A stretch of 47,502 nucleotides of DNA from a candidate division WS6 bacterium OLB21. GTDB taxonomy: Bacteria > Patescibacteriota > Dojkabacteria > B142 > OLB20. Made by a program: the position numbers and the translations under genes. The notes under the pieces are model-generated. The model did not search any database and was not told the DNA's origin. It saw only the letters and a list, made by a program, of their open reading frames with translations. Shown piece by piece: positions 1,690 to 34,170 of this stretch; position 1 is the first letter of the stretch, and each line of letters starts with the position of its first letter. The DNA lies in NCBI GenBank assembly GCA_001567305.1, contig JYPD01000029.1, positions 1 to 47,502 of the forward strand, written 5' to 3'.

Positions 1690-2373
1690 ATGAAAAGATC
1701 AAAAAAATATACTGCAGTCGCCAAGCTCATTAAAAAAAATACAAACTATAAAACCCTAGAAGCAGCAGATCTTGTTGGAAAGCTTTCAACAACAAAGTTT
1801 GCTGGGGCTGTAGAGCTTGCAATTCAATTAAAACTAACAGAGAAACAGAAGAAAGAAACAATCAGAGGCACCTATTCTCTTCCAAATAAATTCGGTAAAG
1901 AGGTAAAAGTATTACTATTTGCAGACTCTGGCTTCAGCGCAAGCAATACAAATGCAGACATCGTCGGAGGAGAAGAACTTATTGCTGACATAGAATCAGG
2001 GAAACTAGAGTTTGACGCAGTAGTCGCTACTCCAGCAATGATGCCTAAAATTGCCAAACTTGGTAGAACACTTGGAAGCAAAGGCTTAATGCCTAATCCT
2101 AAGAACGGAACAGTCACAGAAGATCCTAAAGCGGCTATAGAAAAATTAAAGTCCGGACAACGAAACTTTAAACTAACAGATGCTGGTAGAATAACAGTGG
2201 TGGTTGCAAAATCTGACATGAAGGCTGAACAGATAGCAGAAAACATCAAGGCTTTTGCACAAATTATTTCGCCAGAGATTGCTAAATTCGGCAATCATTC
2301 AATAAAAAAAATAACACTCTGCCCTACAATGGGACCTGCAATATCATTAGATACAGCAGACTTTCTGAATTGA
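1690..2373 (+). CDS. rplA: 50S ribosomal protein L1
   Basis: The 227-residue protein carries the L1 hallmarks: the basic N-terminus MKRSKKYTAVAKLI, the FAGAVELAIQLKL segment, LGRTLGSKGLMPNPKNGTVT in the second domain and the C-terminal TLCPTMGPAISLD. L1 binds the mobile L1 stalk of 23S rRNA, and in many bacteria it represses its own L11-L1 mRNA. The length is normal. Presence of L1 is informative, because ribosomal protein loss varies between CPR lineages. The last codons run straight into the L10-type leader. Confidence 0.97.
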   Translation: MKRSKKYTAVAKLIKKNTNYKTLEAADLVGKLSTTKFAGAVELAIQLKLTEKQKKETIRGTYSLPNKFGKEVKVLLFADSGFSASNTNADIVGGEELIADIESGKLEFDAVVATPAMMPKIAKLGRTLGSKGLMPNPKNGTVTEDPKAAIEKLKSGQRNFKLTDAGRITVVVAKSDMKAEQIAENIKAFAQIISPEIAKFGNHSIKKITLCPTMGPAISLDTADFLN

Positions 2374-2384
2374 CAAAAACTGCC

Positions 2385-2485
2385 AATTGAGATAGTATTA
2401 CCATGTAAATCAGAGTTTCTGTCAAAGACAGTAGGCAAATAAATAAGTCCTACCGAGACGGGGATAATTATATTAACTAAAATAT
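2385..2485 (+). promoter_or_regulatory. L10-type ribosomal protein leader
   Basis: The rplA-rplJ gap holds the L10-leader consensus core: the AAGACAGTAGGC segment at about 2424-2441, then CCTACCGAGACGG at about 2450-2462, which closes the helix by pairing GTAGG with CCTAC. This kink-turn-containing element binds the L10(L12)4 complex in many bacteria, so excess protein shuts off rplJL. Here it is followed by competing hairpins (see next entry). Confidence 0.8.
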
Positions 2486-2510
2486 AATATGCCGTCAGGC
2501 ATATTTTTGT
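2467..2510 (+). terminator. Attenuator terminator with overlapping antiterminator in the rplJ leader
   Basis: A hairpin AATATGCC/GGCATATT (2486-2493/2498-2505, GTCA loop) followed by a T-rich tract looks like an intrinsic terminator 12 bases before the rplJ start. Just upstream, ATTATATT (2467-2474) can pair perfectly with AATATAAT (2481-2488), which shares three bases with the terminator arm, so the two cannot both form fully. This fits attenuation control as known for the Bacillus subtilis rplJL leader. The mechanism here is inferred. Confidence 0.65.
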
Positions 2511-2521
2511 TTTATAAACAG

Positions 2522-3048
2522 ATGGCAAAAACAAAAACACAAAAAAAGAACTTGTTGCTGACTATGTTGCCAAACTAGATAAGGTAAACACAATATACTT
2601 TGTGAAGCCTTTAGGTTTGGGCGTAAATCAAACAACCCTGCTCAAAAAGGCTCTGTACGGACACAATACAGACTATCATATTGTAAAAAACACATTATTC
2701 AAAATTGCTTTAGAGCAAAAAGGACTTCCTGTTCCCTCCTCTTTAGATAACGGCGAAAATGCTGTTGTATTCTGTTCCGACGAAGTTAGCGAGATTGCAA
2801 AATTAATCAAAGAACACGCCAAAGAAACAGAGAAACTCTCAATTCTAGGCGGTATCTTAAATGGTGAACTAATCTCAGGTGATCAAGTAGAAGCACTTGC
2901 AAGTCTTCCATCCAAGGATCAACTACTTGGTCAGTTGCTTAGCGTATTTAACGGACCTATGCGTGGACTCGTTACTGTATTATCGGGCAATATGCGCGAA
3001 TTTGTGCAAGTATTGTCTGCAATTCAGGATAAAAAGTCCGAAGCATAA
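2522..3048 (+). CDS. rplJ: 50S ribosomal protein L10 (frameshifted in this sequence)
   Basis: L10 is the base of the ribosomal stalk and binds L7/L12 dimers through its C-terminal helix. The start at 2522 reads MAKTKTQKK and then fails. Adding one A to the seven-A run 2541-2547 continues it as ELVADYVAKLDKVNTIYFVKP and onward through LLKKALYGHNTDYHIVKNTL (the L10 rRNA-binding segment), giving 175 residues, a normal length. The conserved FNGPMRGLVTVLSGNMREFV segment precedes the C-terminal tail. It is controlled by the leader upstream and followed by rplL 33 bases later. Confidence 0.93.
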
Positions 3049-10601: not shown

Positions 10602-11201
10602 TTATTTCTTGCCAAGCCTGCCTTCAACACCTGTGAGTTTTGCGCTATATGTTGAATAATCCATAACCTCAATGTTCTCAAACCATAAGGCCATTTCTTC
10701 GTCTGCCTCAGCAACTTCACCGGATGCATGAACTAGGTTATAGAATGGGCGTTTGTGGGCATTTGCAAGTTCTGCGTTATCGATCGAAAAATCTCCTCTT
10801 ATAGTCCCTGGCAGTGCGTTCGCAGGATTAGTCTCTCCAACAAGTTTTCGACCTATCTTAACTGCTCCAGGACCTTCCCAGACCATAGCTAAAACGGGGC
10901 CAAAAGTTAAATATTCTACATTCCACTGTTTTATCAGCTTCCCAATCTCTATCGGATCTTCTGATCCAAGCTCCTTGATTGGATCGATTCCTTTTTCTTT
11001 ATACTCACTGAGTGTCCTTTCCCCTACTTTTCGATACCACTTTTCTGAGTCTGGATAGTGTGACTTGCCCATGTCTTCTGTTCCTTGAATAAATTCAAGT
11101 GCGACAAGCTTCAGACCTATTCGCTCGAACCTCTTAATTATTTCTCCCATAAGCCCCCTGGCAACTCCATCGTGTTTAATAATAATTACTGTCTTTTCCA
11201 T
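10602..11201 (-). CDS. ndk: Nucleoside diphosphate kinase (second copy, divergent)
   Basis: The 199-residue protein begins MEKTVIIIKHDGVARGLMGE, the NDK start with TVIIIKHDGV in place of TxxxIKPDGV, and ends its core with GTIRGDFSIDNAELANAHKR and the histidine segment NLVHASGEVAEADEE. The His that carries the phosphate is kept, but the usual SDS after it is changed to SGE. NDKs are normally about 140 residues; the extra length lies in a mid-protein insertion (SEKWYRKVGERTLSEYKEKG onward) and the tail. The enzyme transfers phosphate from ATP to other NDPs. It lies 20 bases after the first ndk in the same direction, and the two share the insertion. Confidence 0.88.
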   Translation of the reverse strand: MEKTVIIIKHDGVARGLMGEIIKRFERIGLKLVALEFIQGTEDMGKSHYPDSEKWYRKVGERTLSEYKEKGIDPIKELGSEDPIEIGKLIKQWNVEYLTFGPVLAMVWEGPGAVKIGRKLVGETNPANALPGTIRGDFSIDNAELANAHKRPFYNLVHASGEVAEADEEMALWFENIEVMDYSTYSAKLTGVEGRLGKK

Positions 11202-21673: not shown

Positions 21674-23098
21674 CTACATATCTTCGTGTAAAGTTGCCAA
21701 GAACTCTTTGTTGTTCTTTGTCTTCTTAATCCTTTCTAGGAGTAAGGCCGTTGCATCTTCATCTTTTAACGCATCTAACATTCTTCTTACTCTCCATGAG
21801 CTGTTTAAGACATCTGGAGCAAGAAGTCTATCGTCATTTCTGGTGCTTGAAGCCTTTACATCGATTGCTGGATAATAGCGTTTTTGTGCAAGCTTTCTGT
21901 CGAGTTTAAGTTCCATGTTTCCAGTTCCTTTAAACTCTTCAAAAATAACTTCATCCATTCTGCTTCCAGTTTCTACTAGTGCTGTTGCAATAATTGTAAG
22001 GCTTCCGCCGTCTTCAAAGTTTCTGGCAGCTCCAAAAAACTTTTTGGGAGGATAAATTGCAACTGGATCGAATCCTCCAGACAGGGTTCTGCCAGATGGA
22101 GGTGCAGTTATATTGTAAGCTCTGGCAAGTCTGGTAATACTATCCATAAGAATAACAACATCTCTACCCGACTCAACCAGTCTTTTTGCTCGTTCTATAG
22201 CCATTTCTGCCAATCTAGTATGAATCTCGGGAGGTTCATCAAAGTTAGCAGCCACAACTTCTCCGTCGACTGAACGCTCCATATCTGTAACCTCTTCTGG
22301 TCTTTCACCAATCAAGACAACCATAAGATGAACATCCGGATGGTTAACACTGATTCCATGAGCAATCTCTTTAAGCAACCATGTTTTACCAACTTTTGGT
22401 GGAGCAACAATCATACCTCTTTGGCCTTTACCGATTGGAGATAAGATATCAATCACCCTATTAGATAAATATTGAGGTTCAGTTTCTAGTTTTAATTGTT
22501 CGTTTGGAAATATTGGTGTGAGCTTATTAAATGTTGGTCTTGAAAGAGCAGCATCTGGACTTGCGTTGTTAATTGCTTCGATACGCAACATACTTAGATA
22601 ACGCTCACCTTCTTTTGGTGCTCTGGCCTGTCCAGAAATAAAGTCTCCAGGTCGCAGATTAAACCTTTTTATTTGTGAACCGGACACATACACATCGTTT
22701 GCCCCAGGTAATAGTTTTAGGGAACGAAGAACTCCGTGACTTCCATCGTTAATAATTTCTAGGACTCCTTCGGCAAAGATATTTCCACCTCTTCTGGTTT
22801 GCTCTTCAAGAATCTTTATAATAAGTTCTGACTTTCCATAATCTGACATTCCTTTAATCTCTAGGTTATTTGCCAGTTTTCGCAAGTCTGCAAGCGACTT
22901 TTCGTCTAGCTCTTTTAGCGTCATTGCTTTAGCTATTGAATCTGGTTTTGTTCTGGTGTTTGTGCTTGAGGGTGGTTGTTGAATCTGTGTAACTATTGGT
23001 TTTTTTGGATTTGCCACAACTTGTGCTTCGTCTGTTTTAACAACAGCAAGCTCTTTCTTTTTTAACGGCCTAATTGCCTTGGCTACTTTTTCTGCCAT
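21674..23098 (-). CDS. rho: Transcription termination factor Rho
   Basis: The 474-residue protein has a lysine-rich N-terminal extension (about residues 1-55), the Rho N-terminal helix bundle ([20 protein letters not shown]), the RNA-binding cold-shock-like domain ([32 protein letters not shown]) and the hexameric ATPase domain with Walker [27 protein letters not shown] and the Q/R-loop stretch [20 protein letters not shown]. Rho terminates untranslated transcripts. The gene follows a -10/-35 pair and an unusually long structured upstream region. Confidence 0.96.
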
Positions 23099-23249: not shown

Positions 23250-23451
23250 AAAACGAATCGCTGCGGCCTTTAATAAGGAAGGGATCGGTACTGCCCCAAC
23301 CGACCCCTATGACAACCCCCGATAACGGATGCATACATAGAATTCTGTTGGTACAGGTGTGTCCAAGAGCCCAGTTGTAAAACCTCTATCGAGGTATGTA
23401 CGCGAACCAGACCCTGGGACACACCTGCAATTTAGTATCAGACACTAAATT
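23250..23451 (-). ncRNA. Unidentified structured RNA upstream of rho
   Basis: About 200 bases with no open frame but dense pairing, read 5' to 3' on the minus strand: an AT hairpin at the very start (23444-23451/23429-23436), an 11-bp perfect helix (23417-23427/23354-23364) closing a large internal loop and an apical ACCTC-type hairpin (23391-23395/23382-23386), a CTATG/CATAG stem with an inner CCG/CGG pair (23307-23340), and a GGGTCGGT/ACCGATCCC hairpin (23281-23306). It starts about 7 bases after an excellent promoter. I find no match to SRP RNA, RNase P RNA, tmRNA or 6S RNA signatures. The 3' end is uncertain. A long rho leader is the alternative. Confidence 0.6.
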
Positions 23452-23457
23452 ACAGAT

Positions 23458-23486
23458 ATTGTACCCTATAATAACTATGGTGTCAA
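23458..23486 (-). promoter_or_regulatory. Near-consensus promoter of the structured RNA
   Basis: On the minus strand a perfect -35 TTGACA (23481-23486), a 17-base spacer and -10 TACAAT (23458-23463). It is the best promoter in the window and does not serve an adjacent protein start. Confidence 0.82.
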
Positions 23487-23541
23487 GCCTATAGTCGAAA
23501 TCTTACGGTCAAAAAAAATGATGAACCAGGCTAGTGAGGCA

Positions 23542-24846
23542 CTAAATACTGCTAAACAATGCAGAAATATGATTAGACCCATTTGTTTCTTTAAGGAAAT
23601 TTGTATAACCAAGTCTTTTCAGTTCTGACTGACGCAATTCGTGCCTTATCGTTTTGCGCACCTCCCCTGTTAAAGAGACTTCTCCGAATGCTACCACTCT
23701 TTTTTTGATGGGTTTATTCTTTAAAGACGATACTATAGCCAGAACAACTGCTAGATCTATAGCTGTGTCTTTTATGCGCATTCCTCCGGCGATATTAACA
23801 TAAATATCTTTTGTACCAAGATCGACCTTACCATATTTAGTAATAATTGCCGCAAGCAATTCTAGCTTTGACTTAGAGATACCTTCTGCAACCCTTTTTG
23901 GCAGACTGAAAGGAGTGTTAACTATTAAAGCCTGAACTTCGATTACAATCGCTCTATTCCCTTCTAGAACTACAGCAGGACAGACACCAACTCTTGGGGC
24001 AGAATCAGAATCCAGAAAGAATTTTGATGGGTCGGCAACATCGTGCATACCGTTTTCTGTCATCTCAAAAATACCGATCTCGTTAGTGGAACCGAATCTG
24101 TTTTTTAGTGATCGCAAAATTCGGAATCCGTGCTTTTCGTCTCCTTCGAACTGAAGTACTGCATCGACAAGATGCTCTAAAAGTTTGGGGCCAGCGACTG
24201 TACCTTGCTTAGTAATATGCCCGACAATCACAACAGCAACACCTGTTTCTTTAGCATAAGTAACGAGTTTTGAGGCAACAGTTCTGATCTGAGCAATACT
24301 ACCAGGCAAACTTGAATTATCTTGGGAATATAGTGTTTGTATGGAATCCATAATCAACAAGTCTGGCTTGTCGGCTGAAACCTTGTTTAATATTGAATCC
24401 ACCTCGAATGCAGATACTATACTAAGCTTGCTGTTTTGTGACTTTACAACCCGTGAGGCCCTAAGCCCAATTTGACCTACCGACTCTTCTGCAGATACAT
24501 AGACTGCCTTTTTACCCATAGAATCAAGATTAGCGGCCAACTGAAGAAGTAAGGTAGATTTACCTATACCTGGGTCACCCGAAACAAGAACGACCTCAGC
24601 TTCGACAAGACCACCTCCAAGCACTCGATCAAGTTCACTTAGCCCCGTTGGAATTCGTTGAATTTGCGAATTGTTAATATCTGCAAGCGAATGAACAACA
24701 ACATTTTGGTTATATTCCATCACTTTAGGAAGCGAAACTGTCTCCGAGAATACCCCGTACTCCTTGCAATTAGGGCATTGCCCCATCCATTTACCAGATT
24801 CGTAAGCACAATTATTGCAAATATAAATTGAAGTTTTTTTCGCCAT
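23542..24846 (-). CDS. radA: DNA repair protein RadA/Sms
   Basis: The 434-residue protein has the N-terminal zinc ribbon (CNNCAYESGKWMGQCPNC), the RecA-like ATPase (VSGDPGIGKSTLLLQLA), the RadA-specific KNRFGSTNEIGIFEM motif and a Lon-like C-terminal domain (YVNIAGGMRI, AFGEVSLTGEVR). RadA is a hexameric helicase that promotes branch migration in recombination and natural transformation, which agrees with comEA and comEC in this window. It lies 34 bases downstream of clpC, as often seen. After its stop the 440 bases to rho hold the structured RNA and two promoters. Confidence 0.95.
   Translation of the reverse strand: MAKKTSIYICNNCAYESGKWMGQCPNCKEYGVFSETVSLPKVMEYNQNVVVHSLADINNSQIQRIPTGLSELDRVLGGGLVEAEVVLVSGDPGIGKSTLLLQLAANLDSMGKKAVYVSAEESVGQIGLRASRVVKSQNSKLSIVSAFEVDSILNKVSADKPDLLIMDSIQTLYSQDNSSLPGSIAQIRTVASKLVTYAKETGVAVVIVGHITKQGTVAGPKLLEHLVDAVLQFEGDEKHGFRILRSLKNRFGSTNEIGIFEMTENGMHDVADPSKFFLDSDSAPRVGVCPAVVLEGNRAIVIEVQALIVNTPFSLPKRVAEGISKSKLELLAAIITKYGKVDLGTKDIYVNIAGGMRIKDTAIDLAVVLAIVSSLKNKPIKKRVVAFGEVSLTGEVRKTIRHELRQSELKRLGYTNFLKETNGSNHISALFSSI

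Positions 24847-31103: not shown

Positions 31104-34170
<3,067 letters not shown>

Follow-up and report, generated by a model that had tools for sequence, protein, structure and literature searches.

A stand-alone structured RNA encoded near rho in Candidatus Dojkabacteria, proposed to act as a protein-binding RNA

Contig JYPD01000029.1 of the candidate division WS6 bacterium OLB21, analyzed over positions 1–47,502 (hereafter the window), carries on its minus strand a stand-alone gene for a structured RNA, which has its own promoter and is distinct from the transcription unit of the neighboring gene rho. The function that we favor, with a probability of roughly 0.6, is that of a trans-acting protein-binding RNA built on modules of a long hairpin, H1, constituting a new class of stand-alone structured RNA. 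Neither transcript nor binding data were available for these conclusions. On the minus strand, 5′ to 3′, the order is radA, the RNA promoter, the RNA of ~180 nt, the rho promoter and rho, with the following features.

23542–24846, minus strand: radA-like gene, the upstream neighbor, with Pfam KaiC/AAA_25, LapB-type Zn ribbon and ChlI domains.
23493–23488 and 23470–23465, minus strand: two TATAGG boxes, 23 bp apart, immediately preceding the −35 and the −10 element, respectively, of the RNA promoter.
23458–23486, minus strand: promoter of the RNA, TTGACA-17-TACAAT, with −35 at 23486–23481 and −10 at 23463–23458.
23268–23451, minus strand: RNA gene; start (~23451) and end (~23268) inferred from promoter and terminator, without transcript data.
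23429–23451, minus strand: 5′ hairpin AATTTAGTGTCTGATACTAAATT, specific to this genome and replaced at this place by a boxA-like GNTCTTTNAAAA in most relatives.
23351–23430, minus strand: H1, a long hairpin of 23 scored pairs plus one conserved C·U mismatch (23416/23365), with core UCCCAGGGUCUGG / CUGGGCUCUUGGA.
23397–23406, minus strand: conserved apical UUCGCGUACA of H1; some families carry GUAAAAGAAGC instead.
23307–23340, minus strand: H2, a variable hairpin directly ahead of H3 and a weak one here.
23280–23308, minus strand: H3, a terminator-like hairpin with conserved loop GGGGCAGU at 23297–23290.
23239–23234 (−35) and 23215–23210 (−10), minus strand: separate promoter of rho, TTGACA-18-TATACT.
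21674–23098, minus strand: rho, the downstream neighbor (synteny only), with Pfam Rho_N, Rho_RNA_bind and ATP-synt_ab domains.

Both promoters had been proposed in an initial annotation and were found at the places given there, on the minus strand. Folding of the region yielded z = −5.1 on this strand, with none of 200 shuffles as good, and z = −1.8 on the plus strand, a weak fold on account of which a plus-strand RNA was rejected. No ORF longer than 50 aa overlaps the region, in agreement with the initial statement that it lacks a reading frame; the longest is a 50-codon GTG frame running across the hairpins, for which a coding role is disfavored by the compensatory changes in the stems. When the 110 nt preceding H1 were searched in relatives, the best promoter scored at least 11/12 in 64 of 71, as against 5 of 1,420 shuffles. 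Of 67 relatives, 49 have a TATRRG box ahead of the −35 element and 31 a TATRGG box ahead of the −10 element, against a background of 0.6% per 10 nt, and the RNA promoter is the sole one in the window with TATAGG-type boxes. These boxes (23464–23493, minus strand), kept across the class, may serve as an operator or constitute a promoter element specific to the lineage. Recurrent TGTGGATA and TTATCCACA strings resembling DnaA boxes were observed at the 5′ ends of RNAs of family f9 (e.g. L013 and L016) and upstream of the f26 and f42 copies.

The distribution of the RNA was assessed at several levels. A nucleotide search of 58 related genomes matched most of them through the 3′ hairpin GGGTCGGTTGGGGCAGTRCCGATCC, the core CCCAGGGTCTGGTTCGCGTACA or both, at a locus usually located between radA or clpC and rho, and an exact pattern search of named genomes returned Candidatus Dojkabacteria (WS6) plus bins labelled CPR3 and WWE3. 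Two actinobacterial pattern matches (L082 and L088) had no covariance-model match and were discarded as chance. With covariance model R2 the RNA was detected in 79 of 86 Dojkabacteria genomes, including 49 of the 53 good ones; three of the seven genomes without it also lack rho, so that these three bins probably do not cover the locus. Five of eight genomes of one other Patescibacteria class contained the RNA, and none was found in the remaining genomes of 380 sampled Patescibacteria under stricter filters that weak members could escape. Nearly all genomes have a single RNA locus, which led us to reject a repeat element or MITE.

Hairpin H1 of the window scored 61–69 bits with covariance models R1 and R2. 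The perfect 11-bp stem noted initially (23354–23364/23417–23427) was confirmed and proved to be the outer part of H1. The arms of H1 aligned without gaps across 23 diverse sequences, with 95.5% of the cells paired, 16 pairs varying on both sides and 125 compensatory cells, compared to 38 in shuffles and no more than 49 in slid frames; two-sided covariation in relatives, which had been suggested as a check of the structure, is therefore strong. Extension to 60 sequences, in an alignment fitted to the model, gave 95.7% of cells paired and 357 compensatory cells. Among non-Watson–Crick cells of the outer helix, G-U outnumbered A-C by 149 to 17 on the transcribed strand, as expected if the minus strand is the RNA strand. 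This asymmetry, together with the conserved U·G and G·U pairs, disfavored a DNA-level inverted repeat. The invariant or nearly invariant alignment columns were C13-G, C14-G, G19-C, U22·G, G23·U and G24-C; the invariant positions lie about one helical turn apart, with the pairs between and outside them free to vary. This pattern is, by inference, what a protein reading one face of the double helix would leave. One copy of H1 was present in 58 loci, two in 12 and three in one (tandem). At L115:480–580 (G024 C97) a second H1 copy, without H3, lies ahead of a gene for a csoR-type metal repressor (PF02583).

All stem pairs of H3 were kept (100%), 7 of 9 with two-sided changes, and the loop GGGCAGU was invariant. 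A T-tract follows H3 in 75% of relatives, against a background of 7%; the U-tract of the window is weak and lies near 23268. The initial annotation had placed a structured RNA at 23250–23451, and the structured RNA was upheld, but not its outline: the RNA of the window probably ends at H3 and the weak U-tract near 23268, not at 23250, and the 5′ AATTTAGT hairpin (23451–23429) is not conserved in relatives. The linker containing H2 folded with a mean z of −2.7 over 55 relatives, and with 0.1 in the window. H3 is absent from most of family f12 and from the other class, in which H1 can itself run into a U-tract. In locus L059 the loop GGGGCAGU recurs in a second H3-type hairpin whose stem differs, and a tandem duplication of H1–H3 was noticed in L104 (G428).

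Rfam 15 returned no match to the RNA at gathering thresholds in a search of the whole window; with E values up to 10, only miRNA, snoRNA and lncRNA noise (E 2–8) was obtained for the RNA region, and the locus in relatives likewise gave noise only. This absence of Rfam matches, envisaged initially as a check, combined with the carriage by 79 of 86 genomes, the strong covariation and the correct strand polarity, substantiates the early suggestion of a new RNA class of this lineage. No published description of this RNA, or of noncoding RNA of the Candidate Phyla Radiation (CPR) or Dojkabacteria, was found in the openly searchable literature, subscription-only papers excluded, and no noncoding-RNA survey of CPR bacteria was found in the literature, the one exception being a report of diverged RNase P RNAs (PMC8172020). 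The novelty is limited to the RNA family, the general idea of a structured sRNA not being new.

In the mechanism that we propose, the RNA would be transcribed from its own promoter, probably at a high level (abundance being inferred). Its fold would comprise one to three H1 hairpins, to which most members add H2 and H3, and its 3′ end would lie at H3 or, in some members devoid of it, at a U-tract following H1. The RNA would then probably act in trans, as a ribonucleoprotein or as a protein-binding RNA (scaffold or decoy). A still unidentified protein would read the invariant positions that recur on H1 at intervals of about one helical turn, and the H3 loop GGGGCAGU may represent a second protein contact. 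The analysis established the promoter, the structure and its covariation, the strand polarity, the repetition of modules, the conservation across the clade and the independence from rho. Trans action and the protein partner are inferences only: as the partner is unknown, protein binding is deduced from the distribution of invariant positions and from the repeated modules. The proposal draws support from the covariation and G-U excess of H1, the H3 stem covarying around its invariant loop, a near-consensus promoter in nearly all members, the T-tract after H3, the tandem H1 copies and second H3-type hairpin of L059, the single locus of nearly all genomes, the occurrence of the RNA away from rho, and a phage contig bearing promoter, H1 and H3. 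Several points count against a trans-acting protein-binding RNA. Most loci hold only one H1, a cis role stays possible in the lineages of the 70 genomes (of 79) in which the RNA is linked to rho, and the window has a weak U-tract behind H3, a poor boxA-like box and a poor H2.

The 5′ end of the RNA and its phage copies bear on further readings. In most Dojkabacteria the boxA-like GNTCTTTNAAAA constitutes the first transcribed bases, 4–8 nt after the −10 element; a box scoring at least 8/9 was found in 32 of 60 cases, compared to 6.4% of shuffles, and most rrn leaders read from the same genomes likewise have boxA-like boxes ahead of 16S. Enrichment of the box at the RNA 5′ end thus holds for the class, and the box is weak or absent in the other class and in the window, whose score of 6/9 does not exceed that of shuffles and reveals no convincing box. 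Two viral contigs contain H3, with a chance expectation, by our own estimate, far below 1. Phage contig L138, which encodes RecT, an exonuclease and a replication initiator, carries at 2285–2620 (minus strand) a promoter TTGACA-17-TAGTAT, a boxA-like GATCTTCCAAAAA, H1 (43.5 bits, E = 1e-9) and H3, this copy lying in the leader before the replication gene. Phage contig L137 carries at 10755–10840 (plus strand) an H2/H3 pair without H1, in the leader of an early operon. INPHARED phages gave no match to the phage copy and one weak chance match to the window RNA.

A broader role can be entertained as a tentative possibility only, namely that of a lineage-wide ribonucleoprotein or RNA-polymerase-modifying RNA, unrelated to known classes, which would serve the core gene expression of Dojkabacteria and which phages would have copied to manipulate the host. 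A different and unlikely reading takes the RNA as a boxA-dependent antitermination element, modelled on rrn boxA/nut, put of phage HK022 and the Bacillus EAR element, which would modify RNA polymerase co-transcriptionally and let it pass H3 into downstream genes. The boxA-like GNTCTTTNAAAA of most Dojkabacteria is indeed similar to the rrn-leader boxA of the same genomes, the phage copies sit in early-operon leaders and the second H1 copy of G024 lies upstream of a csoR-type gene; yet a T-tract follows H3 in 75% of relatives, a second promoter stands ahead of rho, nothing co-oriented is found downstream in several genomes, and neither the other-class members nor the window have a convincing boxA. 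Like boxA-containing rrn leaders, HK022 put and EAR, the RNA has a strong promoter, a boxA-like 5′ box in most members, a structured RNA heading the unit and phage copies; unlike them, it ends in its own terminator, the next gene has its own promoter and the RNA stands alone in several genomes.

Somewhat less likely still is a cis-acting leader or attenuator of rho, raised in the initial annotation as a rho-autoregulatory leader, in which a signal sensed by H1/H2 would decide whether H3 terminates, so that Rho would autoregulate its own synthesis. In 70 of 79 genomes the RNA is co-oriented with rho and lies no more than 2 kb ahead of it (rho itself is present in 83 of 86 Dojkabacteria genomes), and H3 resembles an intrinsic terminator, both in keeping with such a leader. 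However, a near-consensus promoter directly follows H3: within 100 nt after it a rho promoter scored at least 11/12 in 28 of 58 relatives, compared to 0.5% of shuffles. The RNA is, moreover, intact in six f8 genomes with rho ~6–7 kb off on the other strand or on another contig (in L029, of this family, rplJ is downstream, where read) and in two f11 genomes with rho 242 kb away or on another contig; one more of the 79 genomes is interrupted by a contig end. In the other class, in both members examined, the RNA follows lon and is followed by tRNA-Cys or an opposite-strand gene. The RNA is hence not constantly located upstream of rho, with 8 of 79 genomes unlinked and a different context in the other class. 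Nor was a conserved pairing alternative to H3 noticed, without a systematic search. The promoter of rho, the unlinked genomes and the lon context indicate that the RNA is its own transcription unit; its link with rho is one of synteny, not of function, and the evidence lends no support to a leader of rho as the general function. Two irregular rho genes were encountered, one in two overlapping frames (G001 C3:346381–347798), due to a frameshift or an assembly error, and one with an internal TAG (G430).

A trans-acting antisense sRNA, with the H3 loop GGGGCAGU and perhaps also the apical loop of H1 as seed, would explain why that loop is invariant while its stem covaries and why it is duplicated in L059, and is nevertheless improbable, as most of f12 and the other class have kept H1 without H3, and as the G-rich loop of H3 does not pair with the anti-SD and has no good complement in the 16S, 23S or 5S rRNA of the window or in the RNA itself. 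A search of these same rRNAs and of the RNA for complementarity to the RNA loops gave nothing convincing.

Housekeeping RNAs were surveyed in this context. SRP RNA (RF00169) was detected in none of 30 related genomes (controls, 11 of 14) and the RNA-binding (M) domain of Ffh (PF02978) in none of 8 (controls, 14 of 14; the Ffh GTPase domain was outside the search), so that there is no sign of an SRP awaiting its RNA. The signal recognition particle may have been lost in OLB21 (G000) and its relatives. RNase P RNA (RF00010) was located elsewhere in 16 of 16 genomes, on contig C23 in the genome of the window, and tmRNA elsewhere in relatives (L010). The RNA locus does not match the 6S model RF00013, and a sub-threshold 6S candidate of 40 bits, at L068:1501–1660 (G006 C10), away from the RNA locus, suggests that some Dojkabacteria have a diverged 6S RNA. 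That the new RNA is a diverged version of a missing housekeeping RNA (SRP, 6S, tmRNA or RNase P RNA), as contemplated initially, fits its size, its single copy and the lack of RF00169 matches but is very improbable given the parallel absence of PF02978, the occurrence of RNase P RNA, tmRNA and the 6S candidate elsewhere, and a fold without a GNRA-capped SRP domain, a 6S bubble or a tRNA-like domain. A long A+U-rich hairpin was also seen inside the 23S rRNA gene of the window (32803–32863, minus strand), probably an insertion or intervening sequence.

The new RNA was compared to characterized systems. Like 6S RNA (RF00013), it is a single-copy stand-alone RNA of ~180 nt, dominated by a long hairpin and broadly distributed in one lineage; unlike it, H1 has one C·U mismatch in place of a large central bubble and is followed by two more hairpins, Rfam gives no match and a separate 6S candidate exists in relative G006. 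With bacterial small SRP RNA (RF00169) it shares that, in the other class, it approaches a ~100-nt hairpin ending in a U-tract, whereas the conserved part of the new RNA lies mid-helix and is fully paired, GNRA tetraloop and symmetric or asymmetric loops are lacking, and the hosts have no Ffh M domain. As in protein-sequestering sRNAs of the CsrB/CsrC type, repeated hairpin modules suggest multivalent protein binding, but the modules are 23-bp helices with paired invariant positions instead of GGA loops; as for such a decoy, H1 does repeat, in 1–3 copies, although most loci have one and there is no known protein.

The host is a tiny uncultured bacterium, and the RNA is common to nearly all Candidatus Dojkabacteria, to some Patescibacteria of another class and to at least one phage. 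The noncoding RNAs of the Candidate Phyla Radiation have hardly been explored, and the covariance model and alignments make this one directly searchable in metatranscriptomes. Its near-universality in one class, exceptionally strong conserved promoter, modular covarying hairpins and carriage by phage suggest an abundant RNA central to cell physiology, in hosts whose signal recognition particle has apparently been lost.
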